IMG/VR virus record: IMGVR_UViG_3300017763_000201
Span: 1-23,373 of that record
Source of the DNA: a virus
Direction: 5' to 3' (one strand)
DNA: 23,373 bases
Position numbers and translations under genes: made by a program. The notes beneath the pieces are model-generated. The model worked only from the letters and a program-made list of their open reading frames with translations. It made no database searches and had not been told where the DNA came from. Positions 4,226 to 21,252 of this stretch are shown here, one piece after another. Numbering within the stretch: the first letter of the stretch is position 1; each line of letters starts with the position of its first letter.

Positions 4226-4453
4226 ATGTCACCACAAGCACCCTCACCGCATGGACGTTATTCATCGCGGCAAATGGAAACAGGTATCAGCGTACCTGAA
4301 CACGATCATATTTCACTGATTAATAACGCTGACGGAAATCCCACCCAAGTCATCTACAGGACAGGTGGGTCATCTGGAACTATTGTAGGGACAGTAGTTA
4401 TGTCTTACAACTCTACAAGTGGTTTCTTAGAAACAGTACAAAAAATACAATAA
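4226..4453 (+). CDS. Hypothetical protein (75 aa), possible virion protein
   Basis: The ATG lies 2 nt after the RlpA-like stop, with an AATTAATT leader and no Shine-Dalgarno. It overlaps the next gene by one base (TAATG). The protein has a Pro/Ser-rich N-terminus with SRQMETGISVPEHDHIS, then a probable beta-strand region with VIYRTGG, GTIVGTVVMSY and FLETVQKI. The C-terminal strand pattern resembles short phage structural subunits, but I do not recognise a family. Immediate linkage to the collagen-like genes makes a role in a surface fibre or its attachment plausible, though unproven. Confidence 0.6.
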   Translation: MSPQAPSPHGRYSSRQMETGISVPEHDHISLINNADGNPTQVIYRTGGSSGTIVGTVVMSYNSTSGFLETVQKIQ

Positions 4454-5013
4454 TGATTAAACTTCACCCCATTACTGGTCAAATAGTTTACGCACCTGAC
4501 TTCGGTCCGATGGGACCAGTAGGTGAGACTGGAGATAAAGGAGACGAAGGTGAGCAAGGACCACAAGGTGTAGAAGGTAAGCCCGGTCTTAATGGAAAGG
4601 ATGGTGTAAGAGGTTCAAGGGGAAGTACTGGTACTCCTGGCGAAAACGGACTTGGAATACTCAGTGGAGCAGAGCCACCTGATACTGATCTAGGTAGACC
4701 TGGAGAGTTCTATATTGATTACTCTGCTTGGGTTATTTATGGTCCCAAGGGAGCGGAGTACTGGCCCCCAGGATGCTCAATTATTGGACCTGCTGGTAAA
4801 GCTGGAACACCAGGACTAAATGGTGTTGACGGTATTGACGGTGTTGACGGTGTTGACGGTATTGACGGGCCACAAGGTCAAGCCGGTCCACCAGGTCAAC
4901 AAGGTCCCCCAGGTATTCAAGGGCCACGTGGTTCACAAAGTTTCCGAACTTCAGAGCAAACTAACGGACAACAAGATAATAGTTACAAAGGTATTAATGT
5001 CTATTCAAAATAA
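4453..5013 (+). CDS. Collagen-like protein with two Gly-X-Y blocks
   Basis: The protein is 186 aa. Uninterrupted Gly-X-Y runs occupy residues 18-68 and 112-161. A folded insert of about 43 residues separates them, with FYIDYSAWVIYGPKG, a pattern seen in phage fibre and collar proteins. The second block includes GVDGIDG repeats encoded by a 9-bp DNA tandem repeat (4822-4866) and ends in PPG/PRG units. The C-terminus is polar and rich in Asn, Gln and Ser. Collagen-like domains in phages form trimeric rods in tail fibres or head decorations, so this is probably a virion surface fibre. The start overlaps the previous stop by one base. A second collagen-like gene follows after a 6-nt gap. Confidence 0.85.
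   Translation: MIKLHPITGQIVYAPDFGPMGPVGETGDKGDEGEQGPQGVEGKPGLNGKDGVRGSRGSTGTPGENGLGILSGAEPPDTDLGRPGEFYIDYSAWVIYGPKGAEYWPPGCSIIGPAGKAGTPGLNGVDGIDGVDGVDGIDGPQGQAGPPGQQGPPGIQGPRGSQSFRTSEQTNGQQDNSYKGINVYSK
4822..4866 (+). repeat. Five tandem 9-bp units in collagen-like gene 1
   Basis: The units are GGTGTTGAC or GGTATTGAC in the order GTT, ATT, GTT, GTT, ATT, encoding Gly-Val-Asp or Gly-Ile-Asp. The only variation is one base, so the array probably grew recently by slippage. Copy-number change would lengthen the collagen rod in three-residue steps without breaking frame. Confidence 0.9.
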
Positions 5014-5019
5014 TTTATT

Positions 5020-5877
5020 ATGCCGTATCAATTCAGCCCTATACCGGGCTTTACACAGAGAGTAGGAGGAGGGGGTGCAACTGGCCCACAAGGCCCACAA
5101 GGCCCTGCCGGTGCAGACGGTGCAGACTCAACAGTTGTCGGTCCACAAGGTCCTGCCGGAGCTGATGGAGCTGATGGAGCTGATGGAGCTGATGGAGCTG
5201 ACTCAACAGTTGCAGGTCCTGAGGGACCACAGGGTGACCCAGGCACCAACGGTACTGATGGGACCAACGGTACTGATGGTACTGATGGTACTGATGGTAC
5301 TGATGGTACCAACGGTACTAACGGTGCTGGATTCACTGGGGGTTCTTACAACTCTGGAACAGGTGTAGTTACATTTACATCTGACGACGGACTTGGTTTT
5401 AGTACAAGTGACTTGCGAGGTGCTGCTGGATCTCCGGGTGCTTCTATTTTAGTAGCCAGTTATAGCGATACCTCTGGTGGGCAAAACGTTAATAGCACAA
5501 CTGCTACCCGTCTTACTGATATCACTAACACTGTTATCGAAGACTCTCCATACAGCAACTCTTCAGGTGTCATTACTATCTCTACAACAGGTGTGTATGA
5601 AATATATGCTTCTGTAGGTGTGTTTGGTAGTACAGGTAATTACCGCTATACTGCTGAACTAGACGTTCGTTTAAATAACACTGTGGTTGCCCGTCAGAGA
5701 GGTGCTTATGTTCGTAACGGATCTGGTTCAAGAGATAGTTATGTTAACGTTTCTACAATCATAGATGTCACAGCTGGTCAGACTATCGATTTCACCATTA
5801 GGCGGATTAATACTACGTCTGGTAATGCTGTGACCGTTGCTGATACTTCTCGTATCCTTATTAAGAAGCTTCAATGA
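5020..5877 (+). CDS. Collagen-like protein with C-terminal C1q/TNF-like domain
   Basis: The protein is 285 aa. After a short Gly-rich N-terminus, Gly-X-Y repeats run from about residue 22 to 104, dominated by GAD, GTD and GTN triplets. A short linker follows (GSYNSGTGVVTFTSDDGLGF at about 108-127). The last 140 residues (about 145-285) are a beta-rich globular domain with VYEIYASVGVFG, LDVRLNN and VTAGQTIDFTIRRINTTSG. This arrangement resembles a C1q/TNF-like trimeric jelly roll, which typically nucleates and caps collagen triple helices. It is likely a trimeric virion fibre or knob that binds a host surface. The leader AATAATTTATT has no Shine-Dalgarno. A terminator hairpin follows the stop directly. 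A C1q fold is inferred from pattern and not proven. Confidence 0.82.
   Translation: MPYQFSPIPGFTQRVGGGGATGPQGPQGPAGADGADSTVVGPQGPAGADGADGADGADGADSTVAGPEGPQGDPGTNGTDGTNGTDGTDGTDGTDGTNGTNGAGFTGGSYNSGTGVVTFTSDDGLGFSTSDLRGAAGSPGASILVASYSDTSGGQNVNSTTATRLTDITNTVIEDSPYSNSSGVITISTTGVYEIYASVGVFGSTGNYRYTAELDVRLNNTVVARQRGAYVRNGSGSRDSYVNVSTIIDVTAGQTIDFTIRRINTTSGNAVTVADTSRILIKKLQ
5158..5202 (+). repeat. Five tandem 9-bp GGAGCTGAT units
   Basis: Four exact GGAGCTGAT copies are followed by GGAGCTGAC, encoding Gly-Ala-Asp. Near-perfect DNA identity, including the synonymous positions, points to recent slippage expansion inside the collagen-like rod. Confidence 0.9.
5242..5322 (+). repeat. Nine 9-bp units encoding Gly-Thr-Asp/Asn
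   Basis: Units of the form GG(N)AC(Y)RAY encode G-T-N or G-T-D in the order N, D, N, D, D, D, D, N, N. The four central GGTACTGAT copies are identical. Outer copies vary at synonymous positions, as expected of an array expanding from its centre. Confidence 0.88.
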
Positions 5878-5981: not shown

Positions 5982-7064
5982 ATGACCGCTACAATTCAAC
6001 TACAAAGACAACAGAATAACACTTGGCAGCAATTCGTAGAGTGGGTAACTTCTACTAACAACCGACTTTATGTGGGTTGGTTTGGTGTCCTTATGATCCC
6101 TACGTTGTTAGCAGCAACGACTTGTTTCATCATTGCCTTCATCGCAGCACCACCTGTAGACATCGACGGCATCCGCGAGCCTGTTGCAGGTTCATTACTT
6201 TATGGAAATAACATTATCTCAGGGGCAGTCGTCCCTTCCTCTAACGCTATTGGTCTCCACTTCTATCCAGTGTGGGAAGCAGCTTCACTCGACGAGTGGC
6301 TCTATAACGGCGGACCATTTCAACTCGTTGTCTTCCACTTCCTCATTGGTGTGTACGCATATATGGGACGCGAATGGGAACTTAGTTATCGACTTGGAAT
6401 GAGGCCTTGGATCTTTGTCGCATACTCTGCTCCTGTTGCGGCTGCGTCCGCAGTATTCCTGGTGTATCCCTTTGGTCAAGGCTCGTTCTCCGATGCTATG
6501 CCTCTGGGTATTTCAGGAACCTTTAACTACATGTTCGTCTTCCAGGCAGAACATAACATTCTCATGCACCCGTTCCACATGCTCGGTGTTGCTGGAGTTT
6601 TCGGTGGCTCACTATTCAGTGCTATGCACGGGTCACTTGTTACGTCCTCGCTCATTCGTGAGACGTCTGAAGAGGTAAGTCAGAACTATGGATACAAGTT
6701 CGGACAAGAAGAAGAGACTTACAACATTGTCGCCGCTCATGGTTACTTTGGTCGTCTCATATTCCAGTATGCTTCTTTTAATAATAGCCGTAGCCTCCAC
6801 TTTTTCCTTGCCGCTTGGCCGGTGGTAGGTATTTGGTTTGCAGCACTGGGAGTATCAACAATGGCATTTAACCTTAATGGCTTTAACTTCAACCAATCCA
6901 TCCAGTCCAGTGACGGCCACGTCGTCAACACCTGGGCAGATATCCTCAACCGAGCTGGTCTCGGAATGGAAGTCATGCACGAGCGCAACGCTCACAACTT
7001 CCCGCTTGATCTTGCGTCAACTAGCGCCACACCTGTGGCCTTGATTACCCCTACTATTGGATAA
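5982..7064 (+). CDS. psbA: Photosystem II D1 reaction-centre protein
   Basis: This is full-length, 360-aa D1, with residues numbered one higher than in typical cyanobacterial D1. All key positions are visible: tyrosine Z Y162; oxygen-evolving-cluster ligands D171, H333, E334, H338 and D343, with the C-terminal processing site after A345; H191, the partner of tyrosine Z; the P680 ligand H199; non-haem iron ligands H216 and H273; and QB-site S265. E131 (standard position 130) is the high-light-type residue, not Gln. The protein would replace photodamaged host D1 in the thylakoid and keep electrons flowing during infection. Hand counts of three 60-base lines give 28, 33 and 32 G+C, against 21 and 22 in virion-gene lines, consistent with separate ancestry by transfer from a host. 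A terminator lies upstream. The leader is AT-rich without a Shine-Dalgarno. Confidence 0.98.
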
Positions 7065-8074: not shown

Positions 8075-8314
8075 ATGCCATTTTTAGAAGTAATTGTAAC
8101 CAGCATAATCGCATCCTTGACTGGGTTAGGAGTTCTTACTTCTAGATATAACAAGCAATTAGAAAATTTAGATCAAAAAATAGATGCCGTTGAGCTGACC
8201 ATCGCAAAGGATTACGTATCCAAGGATTGTTTTAATACAATTATAGAACGTGTAGAAACTCACATGGTACGAATAGAAACCAAACTCGACAACATTATTA
8301 TTCAAAAACAATGA
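8075..8314 (+). CDS. Membrane-anchored coiled-coil protein, holin/spanin-like (79 aa)
   Basis: A hydrophobic N-terminal helix (about residues 3-24) is followed by a heptad-like polar helix (NKQLENLDQKIDAVELTIAK). The C-terminal coil YVSKDCFNTIIERVETHMVR ends with IETKLDN. A single N-terminal span plus a long coil is the layout of inner-membrane spanin subunits and of some holin-like phage proteins. The start at 8075 is preferred because it comes after the C39-like stop. An earlier alternative near 8039 would overlap that gene and add a polar leader. It ends by an ATGA overlap with the next ORF. Function is inferred from topology and neighbours only. Confidence 0.65.
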   Translation: MPFLEVIVTSIIASLTGLGVLTSRYNKQLENLDQKIDAVELTIAKDYVSKDCFNTIIERVETHMVRIETKLDNIIIQKQ

Positions 8315-8466
8315 TCACTTTAATTAAGCCTATTCTATTTACATTCATAGCATCACGTCCAGTAAAGCAGTTAATTGTTGAACTTCTAGAGGCACTAGTT
8401 AAGAGGACAGATAACCCTCTTGATGACATTGTTGTTTCTAAAGTCAGAGCTGCACTACTATCGTAA
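8311..8466 (+). CDS. 51-aa hypothetical protein before the capsid leader
   Basis: The ATGA overlap with the preceding gene supports translation. The N-terminus is weakly hydrophobic (LIKPILFTFIA). A helix follows (RPVKQLIVELLEALVKRT), then the segment DNPLDDIVVSKVRAALLS, a pattern I associate with short conserved cyanophage proteins of unknown role. It could be a second small membrane-active protein of a lysis cluster. Its last 39 coding bases form the 5' part of the tRNA-like fold described separately. Confidence 0.6.
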   Translation: MITLIKPILFTFIASRPVKQLIVELLEALVKRTDNPLDDIVVSKVRAALLS

Positions 8467-8500
8467 TGGTTGTAGGGAGGTTCGATTCCTCCCAACGGTA
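8428..8500 (+). other. tRNA-like fold with canonical T-arm, degenerate D-arm
   Basis: The T-arm is textbook: a GGAGG stem (8476-8480), loop TTCGATT and CCTCC (8488-8492). The next seven bases CAACGGT (8493-8499) pair fully with ATTGTTG at 8428-8434, with two G-U pairs, giving an acceptor stem at exactly tRNA spacing (73 nt with A8500). An anticodon stem of four pairs (8454-8457 with 8467-8470) encloses a loop reading TCG, but U33 is A and the fifth pair is mismatched. The D-arm lacks GG and a good stem, and no CCA is encoded. The 5' half overlaps the coding region of the 51-aa gene. It may be a decayed tRNA 3' end, a tRNA mimic or an RNA-processing signal. It is not called as a functional tRNA. 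Confidence 0.4.
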
Positions 8501-8532
8501 TTGGTAAAGGCCCGTACGCGGATACCCTCTAC

Positions 8533-8544
8533 CTGTCTAGACAG
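8533..8544. repeat. Perfect 12-bp palindrome in the capsid leader
   Basis: CTGTCTAGACAG is its own reverse complement. It is flanked by CCC (8525-8527) and GGG (8546-8548), which could extend a hairpin across an internal loop. It could be an RNA hairpin, a cleavage site or a dimeric protein site. Confidence 0.7.
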
Positions 8545-8572
8545 TGGGAAAGACTACATACAAATTAAATAA

Positions 8573-8586
8573 CTCAGACGTCTGAG
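8573..8586. repeat. Perfect 14-bp palindrome overlapping the pre-capsid terminator stem
   Basis: CTCAGACGTCTGAG is self-complementary over all 14 bases. Its last three bases are also the first bases of the terminator-like stem at 8584, so the two RNA hairpins cannot form in full at once. Confidence 0.75.
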
Positions 8587-8612
8587 AGTTCAAAGTAAAC
8601 AACTCTCTTTTT
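8584..8612 (+). terminator. Terminator-like hairpin immediately before the capsid gene
   Basis: GAGAGTT (8584-8590) pairs perfectly with AACTCTC (8601-8607) around a 10-base loop, followed by TTTTT (8608-8612) and further A/T. It ends 9 bases before the capsid ATG, leaving no room for a promoter between them. It is therefore either a leaky attenuator or a 5' stabiliser. The whole 8467-8621 gap (155 bases) contains no ORF and is filled by this, the palindromes and the tRNA-like 3' half. Confidence 0.65.
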
Positions 8613-8621
8613 ATTATTACA

Positions 8622-9671
8622 ATGACTTCTTCATGGTCTCCCCTCCCCGGTACTCCCCCTAACACGAGTATCACGGCGACGGGTAACATTAACAAAACTC
8701 CTGGTCTTGGTCTTACCCAAGGCGGAGCAGATTACGACGCTAAGTATGCAACTTATCTCAAGTTGTTTAGTGGCGAGATGATCAAAGCTTACGAGTCTAG
8801 CTGCATCGCTAAAGGCACAGTTCAGAATCGTACTCTTAAGAACGGCAAGTCTTTGCAGTTCATCTACACAGGACGTATGACTGCTGATTATCATCAGCCT
8901 GGTACTCCTATTCTTGGATCTGGTGATCCTCCAGTGGCTGAAAAGACCGTGTTGATGGATGACCTTTTGGTTGCATCAGCATTCCTTTATGATTTGGACG
9001 AGACCCTTGCGCATTATTCTTTGCGTAGTGAGATCTCTGCCAAGATCGGTCACGCTCTTGCCGAAGCATACGACAAGAAAATCTTCCGTACCATTGCTTT
9101 GTCTGCACGTCAGGCACACCCCATCACTGCAGCTCCAGGCCCTGAGCCCGGTGGTTCTGTGATCAAGTTGGGTGCAGGTAATGAGTTCAATGCACAAGCA
9201 ATTGTTGATAGCTTCTTCGAGGCTGCTTCAATTCTCGATGAGAAGAATGTGCCACGGGCAGGTCGCTCTGCTGTGCTGTCTCCTCGTCAGTACTACGCCC
9301 TGATCTCTCAGGTCGATAGCAACATCCTTAACCGTGATTATGGCTCCTCACAGGGAAACATGAACTCCGGTGAAGGTCTCTATGAGATCGCTGGTATCTC
9401 CATCAAGCGTTCCAACAACCTTCCATTTATGGCCGGTACTGTTGCACGTGTCAATGGTGAGAACAATGATTACTCCGGTGACTTCTCTGCTCACTGTGGT
9501 CTTATCTACGGTCGTGACGCAGCTGCTGTTGTCGAAGGCATCGGTCCTTCTGTTCAGACAACTGGTGGTGATGTGAAGGCTATGTATCAAGGCGACATGA
9601 TCATTGGCCGCTTGGCAATGGGTGCCGATTGGTTGAACCCTGCCGCTGCTATTGAACTTCAGGCTGCTTGA
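8622..9671 (+). CDS. Major capsid protein, T7 gp10-like
   Basis: The protein is 349 aa, close to T7 gp10A (about 345), with the HK97-type capsid fold expected of the family. Recognisable stretches are YLKLFSGEMIKAYE (about residues 44-57), a long helix after LDETLAHYSLR (about 130-140), the AVLSPRQYYALIS segment (about 220-232) and a C-terminal GADWLNPAAAIEL. It forms the icosahedral shell. It follows the structured leader and has no Shine-Dalgarno upstream (TTATTATTACA then ATG). No slippery heptamer is visible at the 3' end, so a T7-style 10B frameshift product is not supported. G+C (27 of 60 in one line) is higher than in the tail genes, as expected for a highly expressed gene. Confidence 0.96.
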   Translation: MTSSWSPLPGTPPNTSITATGNINKTPGLGLTQGGADYDAKYATYLKLFSGEMIKAYESSCIAKGTVQNRTLKNGKSLQFIYTGRMTADYHQPGTPILGSGDPPVAEKTVLMDDLLVASAFLYDLDETLAHYSLRSEISAKIGHALAEAYDKKIFRTIALSARQAHPITAAPGPEPGGSVIKLGAGNEFNAQAIVDSFFEAASILDEKNVPRAGRSAVLSPRQYYALISQVDSNILNRDYGSSQGNMNSGEGLYEIAGISIKRSNNLPFMAGTVARVNGENNDYSGDFSAHCGLIYGRDAAAVVEGIGPSVQTTGGDVKAMYQGDMIIGRLAMGADWLNPAAAIELQAA

Positions 9672-10035: not shown

Positions 10036-10062
10036 GGGAGTCCTTCGGGGCTCCTTTTTTTT
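10036..10062 (+). terminator. Strong UUCG terminator after the capsid unit (T-phi equivalent)
   Basis: GGAGTCC (10037-10043) pairs with GGGCTCC (10048-10054), with one G-U pair, across a TTCG tetraloop. Eight T follow (10055-10062). This is the best terminator in the window. In T7 the late terminator T-phi lies in the same place, just after gene 10 and before gene 11. Confidence 0.93.
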
Positions 10063-10727: not shown

Positions 10728-13400
10728 ATGGCAGGCATTACTCAACAGGTTCCAAACTATATCTTTGGAATATCAGAACAACCAGATGAATTAAAAGTTC
10801 CTGGACAGGTAAGAGATCTAAAGAATGCTCTACCTGATGTAACACGTGGTCTACAGAAGAGACCTGGTAGTGCTTATGTAAATACATTAAGTGCTCAATC
10901 AGATGCTAAATGGTTCCACATATACAGAGATGAAAGTGAGCAATACATTGGTCAAGTCACTAATAGTGGTTCTGTAAAAATATGGGACGTTACTACGGGC
11001 AACCAACTCACTGTTACGGGTGACCAATCATCCTATCTTGCCTTTAGCGATAGTGAAGATGTTCAGGTATTGTCAGTTAATGATTATACCTTCCTTACAA
11101 ACAGAAAGAAGGTGACACAAATGTCATCTAGCAAGAGTCCTGCGAAGGTAAATCAAGCATTCATTTCATTGAAGCAGATTAAGCCTGGTACTCAGTATGC
11201 TTTGGATATTAGTACTCCTGGTAGTGGTGTTAGCAATTCATTTAATAGAGCTACTAATATTGAGATATCTGATTACCCGTATGATTCGGGTACGGATTAT
11301 CCAGGCAACGGTAATTGCAGGTACGCTGCTAGACAGTTATTCCAATCAAGTAATAATGTTTGGTTTGAATTAGACGTTCGCTGTATTGGTGCTATTGAAC
11401 CTGGAAGTGATGGTGAGAACGCTTATGATTCTTATACCAGTACTGCTACTTTAAAGTTTGGTGGTGAGAACCAAAGTGTAGGCACAACCCATGAAGTTTT
11501 AATGACTAATGGTAAGGATGGTGGATACTGGACAGTAAGAGTTACCGATGTTTCTCCTGTAACTGCTCGCGCTAACATTGCTTTAGTCCGTCCAACACCT
11601 ACACCATTTGAAGGACTTGGGGCTTCTGCTGATTCTATTTTACAAGGCATCACTGCACCTTTACAGGCTGCTGGTTTCACTGTTAAGCAGATCGGTTCTG
11701 GTATTTATATCACCCGTAGCTCACCCTTTGTTGTCTCTGCTCCAGATGACACATTGATGACCATCATTCAGAATAGTGCTGATGATGTATCCCAACTACC
11801 TTCAAGTTGTAAGGATGGATATGTTGTCAAGGTTGCTAACAGTGGAGAGGATGAAGATGATTACTATGTGAAATTCATTGGAGACAATGGTGATGGTCCT
11901 GGTGTATGGGAAGAAACCGTAGCACCTGATCTTAAAACAAGCTTTAATGCTTCTACTATGCCTGTACAACTGGTGAGGCAGAGTAATGGGTCATTCAACC
12001 TTGAAACTACAGATTGGGAAGACAGGCTAGTTGGTGATAATAAAACCAATCCAGAACCTTCCTTCGTAGGCAAGACTATTAACAAGATGGTCTTCTTTAG
12101 GAATAGGTTAGGCATCTTATCTGATGAGAACATCGTCTTATCTAGACCAGGAGACTTCTTTAACTTCTGGAATAAGACAGCTACAACTGTTGTTCCTATT
12201 GACCCTATCGATCTATCTTGTAGTAGCCAGACTCCTGCTGTTCTGTATGAAGCACTAGAGACCAATGCAGGTCTTGTGATGTTTGCTGAGAACCAGCAGT
12301 TCCTGATGACTACTGACAGTGATATCTTTAGTCCACGTACTGCCAAGATCAATGCACTGTCAACCTATAACTACAACATTAGATCTAGACCAGTTTCGTT
12401 AGGTACTAGTATTGCATTCTTGAATAACGGTGGTAATTACACCCGTATGTTTGAGATGACGACAGTAAATAGAGATACTGAACCACAACTGATTGAACAA
12501 AGCAAACTGGTATCTAAATTAATACCACTTGACTATGACTTAATTGCGGAATCAAAGGAGAATAACTTCATTGCTTTGGCTAGTAAGACATCCAATGAGT
12601 TGTGGGTTTATCGTTACTTTAATACTGGTGAAAAGCGTATCCAATCTGCTTGGGTGAACTGGGATCTAGCAGGTGATGTTCTATATCATTGCCTGATGGA
12701 TGATGTTTATTACGCTGCTTTGAAGTTTGAAGATGATACTATCATTTTACAGTCAATTGACATTAGGCCAACAGATGGTACTCAAGTTGATTCCTATCGA
12801 ATCTACATGGATAACATGGTTGAAGTGCCTAGCAGTTCTCTTACTTATGATCCATTCACTTTAACCACATCCTTCACTAAACCTAGTGGATTCCCTTCTA
12901 ACGATAGGTTATCAGTCTTCACCTTAGAAGATGGTAACAACCAAGGTAGGTTTGAGAATGTCACAGTAGATTCAGGTACCATTACAATTAGTGGTGATTG
13001 GACAGATACAGGTTTAACACTTGGATATTTGTTCGAGATGCTTGTTGAGTTCCCTACTATCTACCCACAACAGAAGCAAGGTGAATCAGTCAGATCTGAT
13101 GTTAGGTCTTCATTGACTGTACATCGTGTGAAGCTAAACCTTGAAGATGCTGGTGTCTATGAATCTACGCTTAGCCGTAAAGGCAAACCTGACTATATTC
13201 AGCTTTATGAATGTAGAGAACAGGATGGATATAAAGCCAACTCTGTAGCCTTTGCTCAGAACAAAGATCAAACTATACCTATCTATGAACGTAACACTAA
13301 CGTCTCATTAACACTTACATCTAGTCATCCTTCACCTTGTACATTGATTTCAATGAACTGGGAAGGTGATTACAACCCACGATATTATAAGAGTGTCTAA
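10728..13400 (+). CDS. Tail tubular protein B (nozzle), T7 gp12-like
   Basis: The protein is 890 aa, longer than T7 gp12 (794). The start MAGITQQVPNYIFGISEQPDELK and the VRDLKNALPDVTRGLQKRPG segment (about residues 28-47) are the strongly conserved N-terminus of this family. The beta-propeller-like core includes NKMVFFRNRLGILSDENIVLSRPGDFFNFW (about 455-484), another family signature. A C-terminal beta region follows, ending in NWEGDYNPRYYKSV. It builds the tail nozzle through which DNA passes. A long reverse-strand ORF inside it is a coding shadow. The 3' end overlaps the gp13 start by 8 nt. Confidence 0.95.
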   Translation: MAGITQQVPNYIFGISEQPDELKVPGQVRDLKNALPDVTRGLQKRPGSAYVNTLSAQSDAKWFHIYRDESEQYIGQVTNSGSVKIWDVTTGNQLTVTGDQSSYLAFSDSEDVQVLSVNDYTFLTNRKKVTQMSSSKSPAKVNQAFISLKQIKPGTQYALDISTPGSGVSNSFNRATNIEISDYPYDSGTDYPGNGNCRYAARQLFQSSNNVWFELDVRCIGAIEPGSDGENAYDSYTSTATLKFGGENQSVGTTHEVLMTNGKDGGYWTVRVTDVSPVTARANIALVRPTPTPFEGLGASADSILQGITAPLQAAGFTVKQIGSGIYITRSSPFVVSAPDDTLMTIIQNSADDVSQLPSSCKDGYVVKVANSGEDEDDYYVKFIGDNGDGPGVWEETVAPDLKTSFNASTMPVQLVRQSNGSFNLETTDWEDRLVGDNKTNPEPSFVGKTINKMVFFRNRLGILSDENIVLSRPGDFFNFWNKTATTVVPIDPIDLSCSSQTPAVLYEALETNAGLVMFAENQQFLMTTDSDIFSPRTAKINALSTYNYNIRSRPVSLGTSIAFLNNGGNYTRMFEMTTVNRDTEPQLIEQSKLVSKLIPLDYDLIAESKENNFIALASKTSNELWVYRYFNTGEKRIQSAWVNWDLAGDVLYHCLMDDVYYAALKFEDDTIILQSIDIRPTDGTQVDSYRIYMDNMVEVPSSSLTYDPFTLTTSFTKPSGFPSNDRLSVFTLEDGNNQGRFENVTVDSGTITISGDWTDTGLTLGYLFEMLVEFPTIYPQQKQGESVRSDVRSSLTVHRVKLNLEDAGVYESTLSRKGKPDYIQLYECREQDGYKANSVAFAQNKDQTIPIYERNTNVSLTLTSSHPSPCTLISMNWEGDYNPRYYKSV

Positions 13401-20400: not shown

Positions 20401-21252
20401 ATGGGTGAAGAGTGGACCAAGGATGCACTGCAAAAGTATGCCCTAGTGGTTGCTAGTGGTGTTACCAGTAAGTCTTACATGGCTGGACTACAACAGTTCA
20501 CTGACTTGTTTGCTGGTGACCCTAAAGCCTTTTACCGAATGGGTGCAGGACTAGCTAACAACCAAATCCCTTTGTCATCCTTACGTAATGAAATTGGTAA
20601 GATATTGAGTCCCGGTATGCGTGAACTTAGTTCTAGTTTTGCTGATCAAATCCGTAACCGTAACCAAGGGTTAGAACTGCTTGCTGGCAAACCTTTACCT
20701 ATTAAGTATGACATGCTCAGTGGTAAACCAATCAATGAGTGGGATCTACCTACCAAACTATTTAATGCTGTAAGTCCTATCCAATTCAATTTGGATGAGA
20801 CACCAGGCAGAAAGATGCTATTTGAAAGTCAGTATGACATGCGTATGTCAGTCATGTCTGCACCTTCTAATCCTCCCATCAGTCTTCGAGATAACGCAGT
20901 ACTTAGGTCTGAATTCCAGAAGTCTATGGGTAACCAAGGTTTAGACCTTAAGCTCAATAACTTAGCTGAACGTGAAGATGTACAGCTGTCAATGAAGCAG
21001 ATGAATGCTGACAGAGATAAAGGTGGTCCTTCAAAGATGGGTGAACCTATGGATTACCTACACAACCGACTGATCAAACGTGCATTCGATAGAGCACGTA
21101 AGAAGGCTTGGGCAGATATTGCTCAGGATCCACGTGTACAAGAACTGATTGAAGAGCAACGTGGTATTGATCGTCTTAACTACAACACTAAAACAGGCAA
21201 CCGCTCAGGACGCCAAGAAGCCTTGGAAAACTTACAAACTATGCACAAGTAA
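17464..21252 (+). CDS. Internal virion protein D, T7 gp16-like, without N-terminal transglycosylase
   Basis: The protein is 1262 aa (T7 gp16: 1318). Residues 1-60 are acidic and Gln-rich and contain no SLT motif. A long Ala/Gly-rich hydrophobic region spans about 141-191 and could insert into the inner membrane. The rest is helical and charged, with conserved-looking blocks such as GPKTPVRAIMGTSSATFLRPL (about 617-637) and KPFFLFARTSVNGLELMGKHTP (about 839-860). In T7, gp16 helps form the trans-envelope conduit and drives the first part of DNA entry. Size, position after gp15 and the membrane-active stretch support the call. A 300-aa reverse ORF within it is a shadow. The stop is followed directly by the tail fibre ATG. 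Confidence 0.9.
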   Translation: MNSFMPGIEVDADAVEQQADNLEQQLQDNATFVETLEQNEEEKATADKQEQEQLDDPRSDGVGFNVPDIAAETKAAVTGGLQDSISSGATLFERTGDMFNGEMAAAGDDYKPEWDPTGADGENKIVTNTWWGDFLRRAIHFGTMAGATVLAAKGIAALGIGAGVSAGAGWLAGGATTTLGKFGAASAVSAIGDLGSKYSQDDNALGVLRDRYGFIDTPISTKDTDHPAVMTVKNMVESMGIGTVMEGLGMLIKRGTKVKVKDVDGNVKEVPAEEVQLKEAAERSESIKEQVETRGKEQFNEEGFGAYKNQPISDPWQGSPTSTGKADVALEQLSRTRNEWGAEMGSTYSQTTPSELNRYVQSSGLPDDIIIKKAEELMSAPKFKEGMAAIKSGRATPKEIWGESIEMYTDIVQGREILDINKDEFLDRLMSDSYVKDGVELMNPSKIAATDLIVGSLMREARDLGMAGRELGDIADLGAKDGPAERLMDMMITLNTETHKARFDWSQSGKEIGVGVTRKPSKSLKREAKQILKDLKQESKESLYTMLQLANKDTDDSLMKSIFEYVSQSNDLRNFEDLESWAKKKLKGGEFNGRKETGKLIDELGKVMVNSVLSGPKTPVRAIMGTSSATFLRPLSTALGAALGGNGQVARASLANLNAMVQMIPEAFTIFKTKVNSNFAGDINSNPSRFIEQAKSTDAVEWELMAKFFESDKATKGQKGAWRAANVAKNINNNNLFTYSTKLMQATDDTFRVLMARGQARQMAMMEAMKNGTDITPKLMKEYEAKFQNQIIDSDGTIRTETDGGAALAYGTKEVTLTKQLDGFAAALDDAFQKTPWAKPFFLFARTSVNGLELMGKHTPIVNRLIKENQLISQATSQTLEDVAQYGIMNADQLANAKALMKGRVAIGYGVVSMASMAALSGNLRGNGPTDRQMRQVWKDAGWKPNTIKLGDVWVNYEAFEPFNIMLTTIADIADHSQLMGEEWTKDALQKYALVVASGVTSKSYMAGLQQFTDLFAGDPKAFYRMGAGLANNQIPLSSLRNEIGKILSPGMRELSSSFADQIRNRNQGLELLAGKPLPIKYDMLSGKPINEWDLPTKLFNAVSPIQFNLDETPGRKMLFESQYDMRMSVMSAPSNPPISLRDNAVLRSEFQKSMGNQGLDLKLNNLAEREDVQLSMKQMNADRDKGGPSKMGEPMDYLHNRLIKRAFDRARKKAWADIAQDPRVQELIEEQRGIDRLNYNTKTGNRSGRQEALENLQTMHK

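Follow-up and report, generated by a model that had tools for sequence, protein, structure and literature searches.

Gene 10 of phage T7 has its own promoter, and in mitochondria the ends of mRNAs are set by tRNA processing, an arrangement termed tRNA punctuation. Transfer RNAs are natural cut sites, at which RNase P and RNase Z act, and in E. coli a stem close to the 5' end of a message hinders its 5'-end-dependent decay by RNase E. Phage Syn5 is reported to have two phage promoters, with transcription from one of them extending over 37 kb (PMC3950665). If transcripts of this length from few promoters are typical of such phages, a separate capsid message would need a cut. The HDV-like theta ribozymes are known mainly from gut phages, as their description has it (PMC10879173), and functional RNA homodimers are said to be rarely observed in nature (PMC7357161). 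Against this background we describe a structured leader RNA 5' of a viral capsid gene, which makes testable the question of how a phage polymerase with few promoters gives the capsid gene a message of its own.

The window, by which we mean the whole stretch of DNA analysed here, comprises positions 1-23,373 of the IMG/VR record IMGVR_UViG_3300017763_000201, a virus record of 23.4 kb. Its major capsid protein gene, identified by tblastn, occupies 8622-9671 on the plus strand with the ATG at 8622-8624, and the leader lies directly 5' of it; all leader features given below are likewise on the plus strand. The capsid gene matched 1354 records of the phage collection in the tblastn search, and the 17 at 60-80% identity are cyanophage major capsid proteins. 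As these closest capsid relatives are cyanophage proteins and a psbA-like frame is seen by eye at 5982-7064, we call the window a T7-like cyanophage. Two frames with collagen-like GPQGPAG-type repeats (4453-5877, by eye) lie 5' of the psbA-like frame. On the 3' side of the capsid gene, a terminator-like hairpin with a long T-run at 10036-10055, which stands first in the list from the 20 kb scanned, occupies the place of the T7 late terminator. Pseudomonas phage LUZ100 is reported to have a strong terminator directly 3' of its capsid gene and to be T7-like in that respect (PMC10134795).

A sequence-only reading of this DNA had pointed to palindromes and a terminator-type hairpin in front of the capsid gene, and its description of them is exact. 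The 12-nt palindrome Pal1 (CTGTCTAGACAG, 8533-8544) and the perfect 14-nt palindrome Pal2 (CTCAGACGTCTGAG, 8573-8586) were confirmed by direct reading and by script, and according to the script they are the sole perfect palindromes of at least 12 nt in the 23,373-base window. The hairpin of 7 bp, here called HP6 (8584-8607; GAGAGTT 8584-8590 with AACTCTC 8601-8607, that is GAGAGUU/AACUCUC in RNA), was the terminator stem of that reading; it shares 8584-8586 with the 3' arm of Pal2 and is followed by TTTTT at 8608-8612, which ends 9 nt 5' of the capsid ATG. Its point that the T-run and the ATG leave no room for a promoter also holds: sigma-70-like matches occur only at chance level, two of them overlapping 8589-8623, with 29 found in 20 kb where 35.8 are expected. 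An inverted-repeat search of the window with the settings used (minimum arm 10) reported none, probably because the palindromes are spacerless and the arms of HP6 fall under the minimum of 10. The computed energies are -5.7 kcal/mol for the Pal2 hairpin and -6.9 kcal/mol for the hairpin at 8584-8607. Thermodynamic stability was discarded as evidence, with z-scores of -0.59 for 8455-8640, -0.05 for 8501-8624 and -0.61 for 8565-8621, the energies being no lower than in shuffles; chance is judged here only by comparison with relatives and controls. A larger RNA leader, overlooked by the sequence-only reading, has these hairpins as its 3' part and, by sequence comparison, recurs in hundreds of related virus sequences.

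For this comparison capsid loci were gathered from IMG/VR (the best 80 or fewer per search) together with named phages. The set started at 388 loci or records; a candidate core was recognised in 354 of them, and 342 were kept; the 180 representatives have a k-mer overlap below 0.30, of which 178 remained after removal of L303 and L301, and 173 have a start codon. Shuffles preserved base content alone in the searches for the core pattern, for Pal2 and HP6, and for the T-element acceptor and tRNAs, and preserved dinucleotides in the counts of palindromes of at least 10 nt and of 4-nt loops. The general layout upstream of the capsid start is a 5' element, a conserved core, Pal1 or a nearby hairpin, a hairpin HP4 and Pal2, to which some leaders add an HP6 hairpin before the start codon.

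The core (8501-8533) was delineated by a strict pattern, RNAalifold, pair counts and the minimum-energy fold. Its outer stem P1, which has the same basis, pairs 8503-8506 with 8530-8533 and 8508-8510 with 8526-8528, and encloses a conserved C (8511), an inner hairpin P2 (8512-8514/8519-8521) with a UACG loop (8515-8518), and an AYAM internal loop (8522-8525). The strict pattern was written as G-C-[3-4 bp stem, 4-nt loop]-A-Y-A-M-C inside the longer stem P1, with YNMG or GNRA loops; 256 of the 354 candidate cores carry a UACG loop. Upstream of the capsid gene this pattern is found in 313 of 329 loci, these being the loci with 330 nt upstream, near-identical ones included, against 1/329 in shuffled sequences and 0/329 in the reverse complement; inside the capsid gene it is found in 0 of 388 stretches. 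The pattern itself demands pairing, and therefore it is these controls, rather than raw pair counts, that show the core to be real.

A first MAFFT alignment (A1, 117 sequences) put inner stems of 3 and 4 bp out of register. The alignment A2 holds 51 of the 88 representatives with 3-bp inner stems, picked for a common P1 register, and thus leans towards structure. On A2, RNAalifold predicts 10 pairs, of which 8 are changed on both sides; 98.2% of the cells pair, against 76.5% when shuffled and at most 53.7% when slid, and covariation is 0.595 against 0.184 shuffled and 0.136 for the best slid version. Two of the five covariation measures are weak: the 8 both-side-changed pairs compare with 5.8 in shuffles (11 of 500 shuffles reach 8), and the 18 further pair types compare with 16.4 (reached in 105 of 500). 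The bases of the internal loop are invariant across the 51 aligned sequences, and the minimum-energy fold of 8501-8624 includes the core stem. Taken together, the comparison shows that the core stem-loop is under selection as an RNA.

Single forward copies of the core are present in the window and in the stretches analysed of S-CBP3 (35.8 kb), Syn5 (40.9 kb) and P-SSP7 (41.1 kb), in each case 5' of the capsid gene, and P-SSP7 has one additional match on the reverse strand. Eleven more forward matches among the loci fall outside the 330 nt upstream; four of these (in L079, L188, L296 and L303) we read as true cores that insertions have displaced, and the other seven as chance matches. Among 12 more distant records the pattern occurs in 8, namely the roseophages CRP-114, CRP-171 and CRP-403, the Prochlorococcus phages P-SCSP1d and P-SCSP2, the pelagiphage Eistla, Bordetella phage BB8 and Rhizobium phage RHEph01; the strict form was missed in HTVC011P (where a core is present by eye), LUZ100, YIMV22061 and ProddE. 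CRP-227 carries the core too. In L074 an apparent inverted part-copy of the leader is seen by eye at the contig end, where the locus starts, perhaps as an assembly artefact.

No Rfam 15 family matches the window at its gathering score, and over 8300-8700, with E up to 5, a sub-threshold tRNA is the sole match. An Rfam scan of 17 other loci returned tRNA, glutamine-II and group I intron matches only. Group I introns lie in the capsid-gene region of six relatives (L188 1299-1528, L194 1326-1553, L295 2100-2327, L296 1293-1519, L297 2100-2327 and L303 1408-1616). Glutamine-II riboswitches lie upstream of the capsid leader in L083 (894-950), L061 (2645-2698), L094 (381-432), L188 (855-908), L295 (907-964), L297 (905-964), L303 (870-924) and L092 (376-429), and Rfam gives no glutamine-II match in the window. 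We found no description of the capsid leader in the literature searched, of which few subscription papers were within reach, for this conserved RNA 5' of a cyanobacterial-virus capsid gene. Nearest to it come theta ribozymes in position (PMC10879173) and palindromic RNA dimers in loop type (PMC7357161), and we class it with neither.

Directly 5' of the core the window has a tRNA-like element, here termed T type (8459-8500), recognised from its sequence and from an Rfam tRNA match at 8428-8500 that, with 15.3 bits and E 2.2, falls short of the gathering score of 29; ARAGORN finds no complete tRNA in the window. The sequence provides a T-arm, GGGAGG (8475-8480) with CCUCCC (8488-8493), closed by the T-loop UUCGAUU (8481-8487). 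By eye we propose an acceptor, UAUCGU (8459-8464) with ACGGUA (8495-8500), joined by a linker at 8465-8474; an unrestricted acceptor search in the window scored a different pairing. A T-loop hairpin is present in 77 of 178 representatives, and 65 of these 77 T elements have an acceptor of at least 5 bp at the expected place, against 15.5 in shuffles. Complete tRNAs are found by ARAGORN in 12 of 345 loci, ending 10-11 nt 5' of the core C, which is the start of P1; eight of the twelve are tRNA-Cys and similar in sequence.

In other relatives the place of the tRNA-like element is occupied by a hairpin, termed H, with a CACCTCAGAGTCGGA-type loop. Its 168 matches have a nearly constant loop of 15 nt (CACCTCAGAGTCGGA in 105 of them) on many different stems, as in L089 and L091. 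The flanking stems fall into 58 distinct types if the empty one is counted, the script having found no flanking stem in 8 matches. The H stem ends 11-17 nt 5' of the core C in 155 of the 168. By script, the 180 representatives divide into 75 of T type, 88 of H type and 17 of neither, such that 163 have T or H just 5' of the core. In P60-type phages an insert is seen by eye between the T or H element and the core, and inspection of the 8 distant core-bearing phages shows neither element directly 5' of the core. The comparison shows that T7-like cyanophages keep the leader, and that most relatives have a tRNA-like element, a tRNA or an H hairpin just 5' of the core.

We give about even probability to the view that 8459-8612 is one modular leader RNA of the capsid gene, constituting a tRNA-punctuated, structured mRNA 5' end and not an attenuator; its role probably lies in RNA processing and stability and not in switching a terminator. 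As a processing boundary, the tRNA-like or H element would be cut by RNase P on its 5' side and by RNase Z or a similar activity on its 3' side. The mature capsid mRNA would then start near 8501 and carry the P1/P2 stem at its 5' end, and P1, two nucleotides from the new end, would shield this abundant message, released from a long transcript, from 5'-end-dependent RNase E decay. More tentatively, Pal1 and Pal2 may be sites of self-complementary pairing, and HP6, overlapping Pal2 near the start codon, may tune access to the start region. We know of no processing enzyme for the H element. The sequence-only reading had also allowed that its hairpins might be stabilising 5' structures left by cleavage, which comes near to this model; the likely structure, nevertheless, is the stem at 8503-8533, which it had not reported.

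Host RNase E is reported to rise during P-SSP7 infection, and antisense RNA to cover nearly the whole of the phage transcripts (PMC9692554); such antisense RNA could mask the fold of the leader. The record annotation of LUZ100 gives the order promoter phi7 (20586-20635), tRNA-Asn (20831-20906) and capsid gene (21192), and has no promoter between phi7 and the capsid gene. Its feature T14 (20769-20868) is labelled a terminator, though not called rho-independent. LUZ100 was studied by ONT-cappable-seq, and the methods of that study describe a window of -60 to +40 (PMC10134795). If T14 is such a window, the 3' end would lie near 20829, about 2 nt 5' of the tRNA, as would fit an RNase P cut. A second 3'-end feature, T15, lies between the tRNA and the capsid gene, and since LUZ100 has 22 such features in total, the position of T14 beside the tRNA may be due to chance. 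Against the leader model are the unexceptional fold energy, the two weak covariation measures, the H matches devoid of a stem, the inserts of the P60-type phages, the lack of the strict core in 4 of the 12 distant records, LUZ100 among them, and the 8 others, which show no T or H element directly 5' of the core.

The palindromes have properties of their own. Pal1 overlaps P1 by one base and has another, 8544, in common with HP4 (8544-8557), a GUGG-GAAAGA-CUAC hairpin of the minimum-energy fold; in relatives HP4-like GAYAGA or GAGAGA loops are seen by eye on other stems. A Pal1 of at least 8 nt is present in 117 of 173 leaders, with 10 different 4-nt centres. The sequence-only reading had let its case depend on conservation of the stems in relatives, and they do recur: a Pal2 of at least 8 nt is present in 164 of the 173 leaders, and HP6-type stems (score at least 9) are found in 67 of the 164, against 7.9 with shuffled tails. 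Pal2 has 84 distinct sequences, including a few runs of A/T only, and uses 14 of the 16 possible centres. Perfect palindromes of at least 10 nt occur in 165 of 173 leaders (16.7 when shuffled), and two or more in 81 (0.95 when shuffled), counts that, like those of the Pal2 sequences and of the self-complementary loops and centres below, take the representatives as independent, which is true only in part. Palindromes are not confined to the leader, there being others of at least 12 nt elsewhere in S-CBP3 (7), Syn5 (11) and P-SSP7 (12).

These features bear on a second reading, compatible with the processed 5' end, which we regard as possible though less probable: at high mRNA level the capsid mRNA would form a homodimer through Pal1 and Pal2, the hairpins opening into an intermolecular duplex and HP6 unzipping, with a change in translation or stability. 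Among 4-nt loops on stems of at least 6 bp, 157 of 174 are self-complementary, against 2.3 of 38.8 in shuffles, and the central dinucleotide, which cannot pair within a hairpin, is self-complementary in 235 of 252 cases where 25% is expected by chance. Such centres point to pairing beyond that within a single hairpin, and the single mismatches inside palindromes (36 G-U against 2 A-C, and 7 others) point to the sense RNA. By computation, Pal2 regions gain -15.8 kcal/mol on dimerising with their natural centres and -4.9 kcal/mol with permuted ones (n=164), and in the computed dimer of 8565-8615 alone a 14-bp Pal2 duplex replaces HP6. These energies are computed, however, and the best computed dimer of the whole leader of the window pairs Pal1 while HP6 stays folded; as the method cannot show the Pal1 and Pal2 duplexes together, this result speaks neither for nor against the HP6 switch. 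A Pal2 of 8 nt is missing in 20 of 348 leaders, including those of P60, S-CBP42 and SS120-1, and the S-CBP clade has a GAGAGA-loop hairpin (by eye) near the place of Pal1.

A stronger form of this reading, which we consider a doubtful prospect, is that capsid mRNAs self-pair at two sites free in sequence and selected for self-complementarity, such that concentration-dependent pairing would rearrange the start region and the mRNA would sense its own concentration. A hypervariable self-recognition tag had been suspected from 32 pairs of centres with similar 40-nt flanks, and was dropped when, in 120-nt windows, the centres differed in just 3 of 56 close pairs (at least 90% identity outside the centre); by this sequence measure Pal2 centres are not fast-evolving. 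The self-complementary centres are the surprising part of the leader, a rule under which its hairpin tips could pair with their own copies.

That the core might instead be a new self-cleaving ribozyme, cutting at its own 5' end in a theta-like position behind phage tRNAs, we think unlikely. In its favour, the core immediately follows a tRNA in 12 of 345 loci and has invariant internal-loop bases in the 51 aligned sequences, and theta ribozymes are reported to cleave at tRNA 3' ends (PMC10879173). Against it, inspection of the core shows no HDV-type topology: P1 and the inner hairpin are a single base apart, which leaves the core with no P2 strand of the HDV type. A theta or HDV ribozyme was rejected on the nested pseudoknot P1-P2-P3, which is not seen by eye, and on the empty Rfam result for ribozymes in the window.

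That the core works as double-stranded DNA, as a promoter for the phage RNA polymerase, is very improbable; compensatory stem changes are unexpected of duplex DNA. The string ATTGG...CCCGTA does resemble the reported Syn5 promoter, ATTGGGCACCCGTAA (PMC3950665), and for LUZ100, as for T7, a local phage promoter of the capsid gene is reported (PMC10134795), but no Syn5-promoter match within 3 mismatches lies in the leader, and phi7 of LUZ100 is upstream of the tRNA. The sole Syn5-type match within 3 mismatches in the window is at 11014-11028 on the minus strand, and the promoter reading was rejected on this count. This match has one mismatch and lies antisense in the large frame 10728-13400, the chance expectation for matches with up to 3 mismatches being 0.28. 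We give hardly more credit than to the weakest reading to the proposal that the tRNA-like part is a mere phage attachment site or a decaying, functionless tRNA gene; related phages have integrases and complete tRNAs are here in a minority, but the T elements retain their acceptor pairing and an unrelated H hairpin holds the same place in nearly half of the representatives.

HP6 bears on the weakest reading, the transcription attenuator of the sequence-only reading, in which Pal2 would be the anti-terminator and 8584-8612 the terminator. The overlapping helices it described are true alternatives, and their overlap recurs: 60 of the 67 strong HP6 stems overlap Pal2 by 3-6 nt, in a search that began at the Pal2 centre and so favoured overlap. 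HP6 ends 5-11 nt 5' of the start codon in 53 of the 67, and 14 nt from it in the window. The T-run is unconserved, with at least 4 T in the 5 nt after the stem in 10 of the 67, the window being among them. The RNA polymerase of the related phage Syn5 is reported to pass a T7 terminator in vitro without stopping (PMC3950665). Recurrent pairing in which no conserved T-run follows is not what a terminator needs, and with a related polymerase said to pass a terminator, and no ligand sensor or leader peptide identified by Rfam and the ORF list, attenuation is unsupported and we consider it the most improbable of the readings.

The processed and stabilised 5' end that we prefer can finally be set beside the described systems. 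With the T7 gene 10 leader and the ompA 5' stem it shares a structured 5' end on an abundant structural-protein message; unlike T7 gene 10, it has no identified promoter, its 5' boundary being the tRNA-like or H element. In tRNA punctuation, as in mitochondria and perhaps in LUZ100, a tRNA stands directly before the message and its processing would set the 5' end, whereas our leader usually has a reduced tRNA-like element or an H hairpin, with a predicted cut. Transcription attenuators likewise have alternative overlapping helices 5' of a gene, but the leader differs from them in having no conserved U-tract and no identified sensor. Theta ribozymes are described as structured RNAs directly 3' of phage tRNAs (PMC10879173), and the leader resembles them in that position; it differs in having no visible pseudoknot strand and in sitting 5' of a capsid gene. 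Lastly, the palindromic dimer motifs of the HIV-1 DIS, the oskar 3'-UTR and hatchet are, as described, self-complementary and able to pair between copies (PMC7357161). The leader has this in common with them, yet its centres vary among phages while self-complementarity stays, and it often has two such sites, for which the dimer is a computed one; if these sites do pair between molecules, the capsid leaders of T7-like cyanophages would provide an example from nature of functional RNA homodimers.
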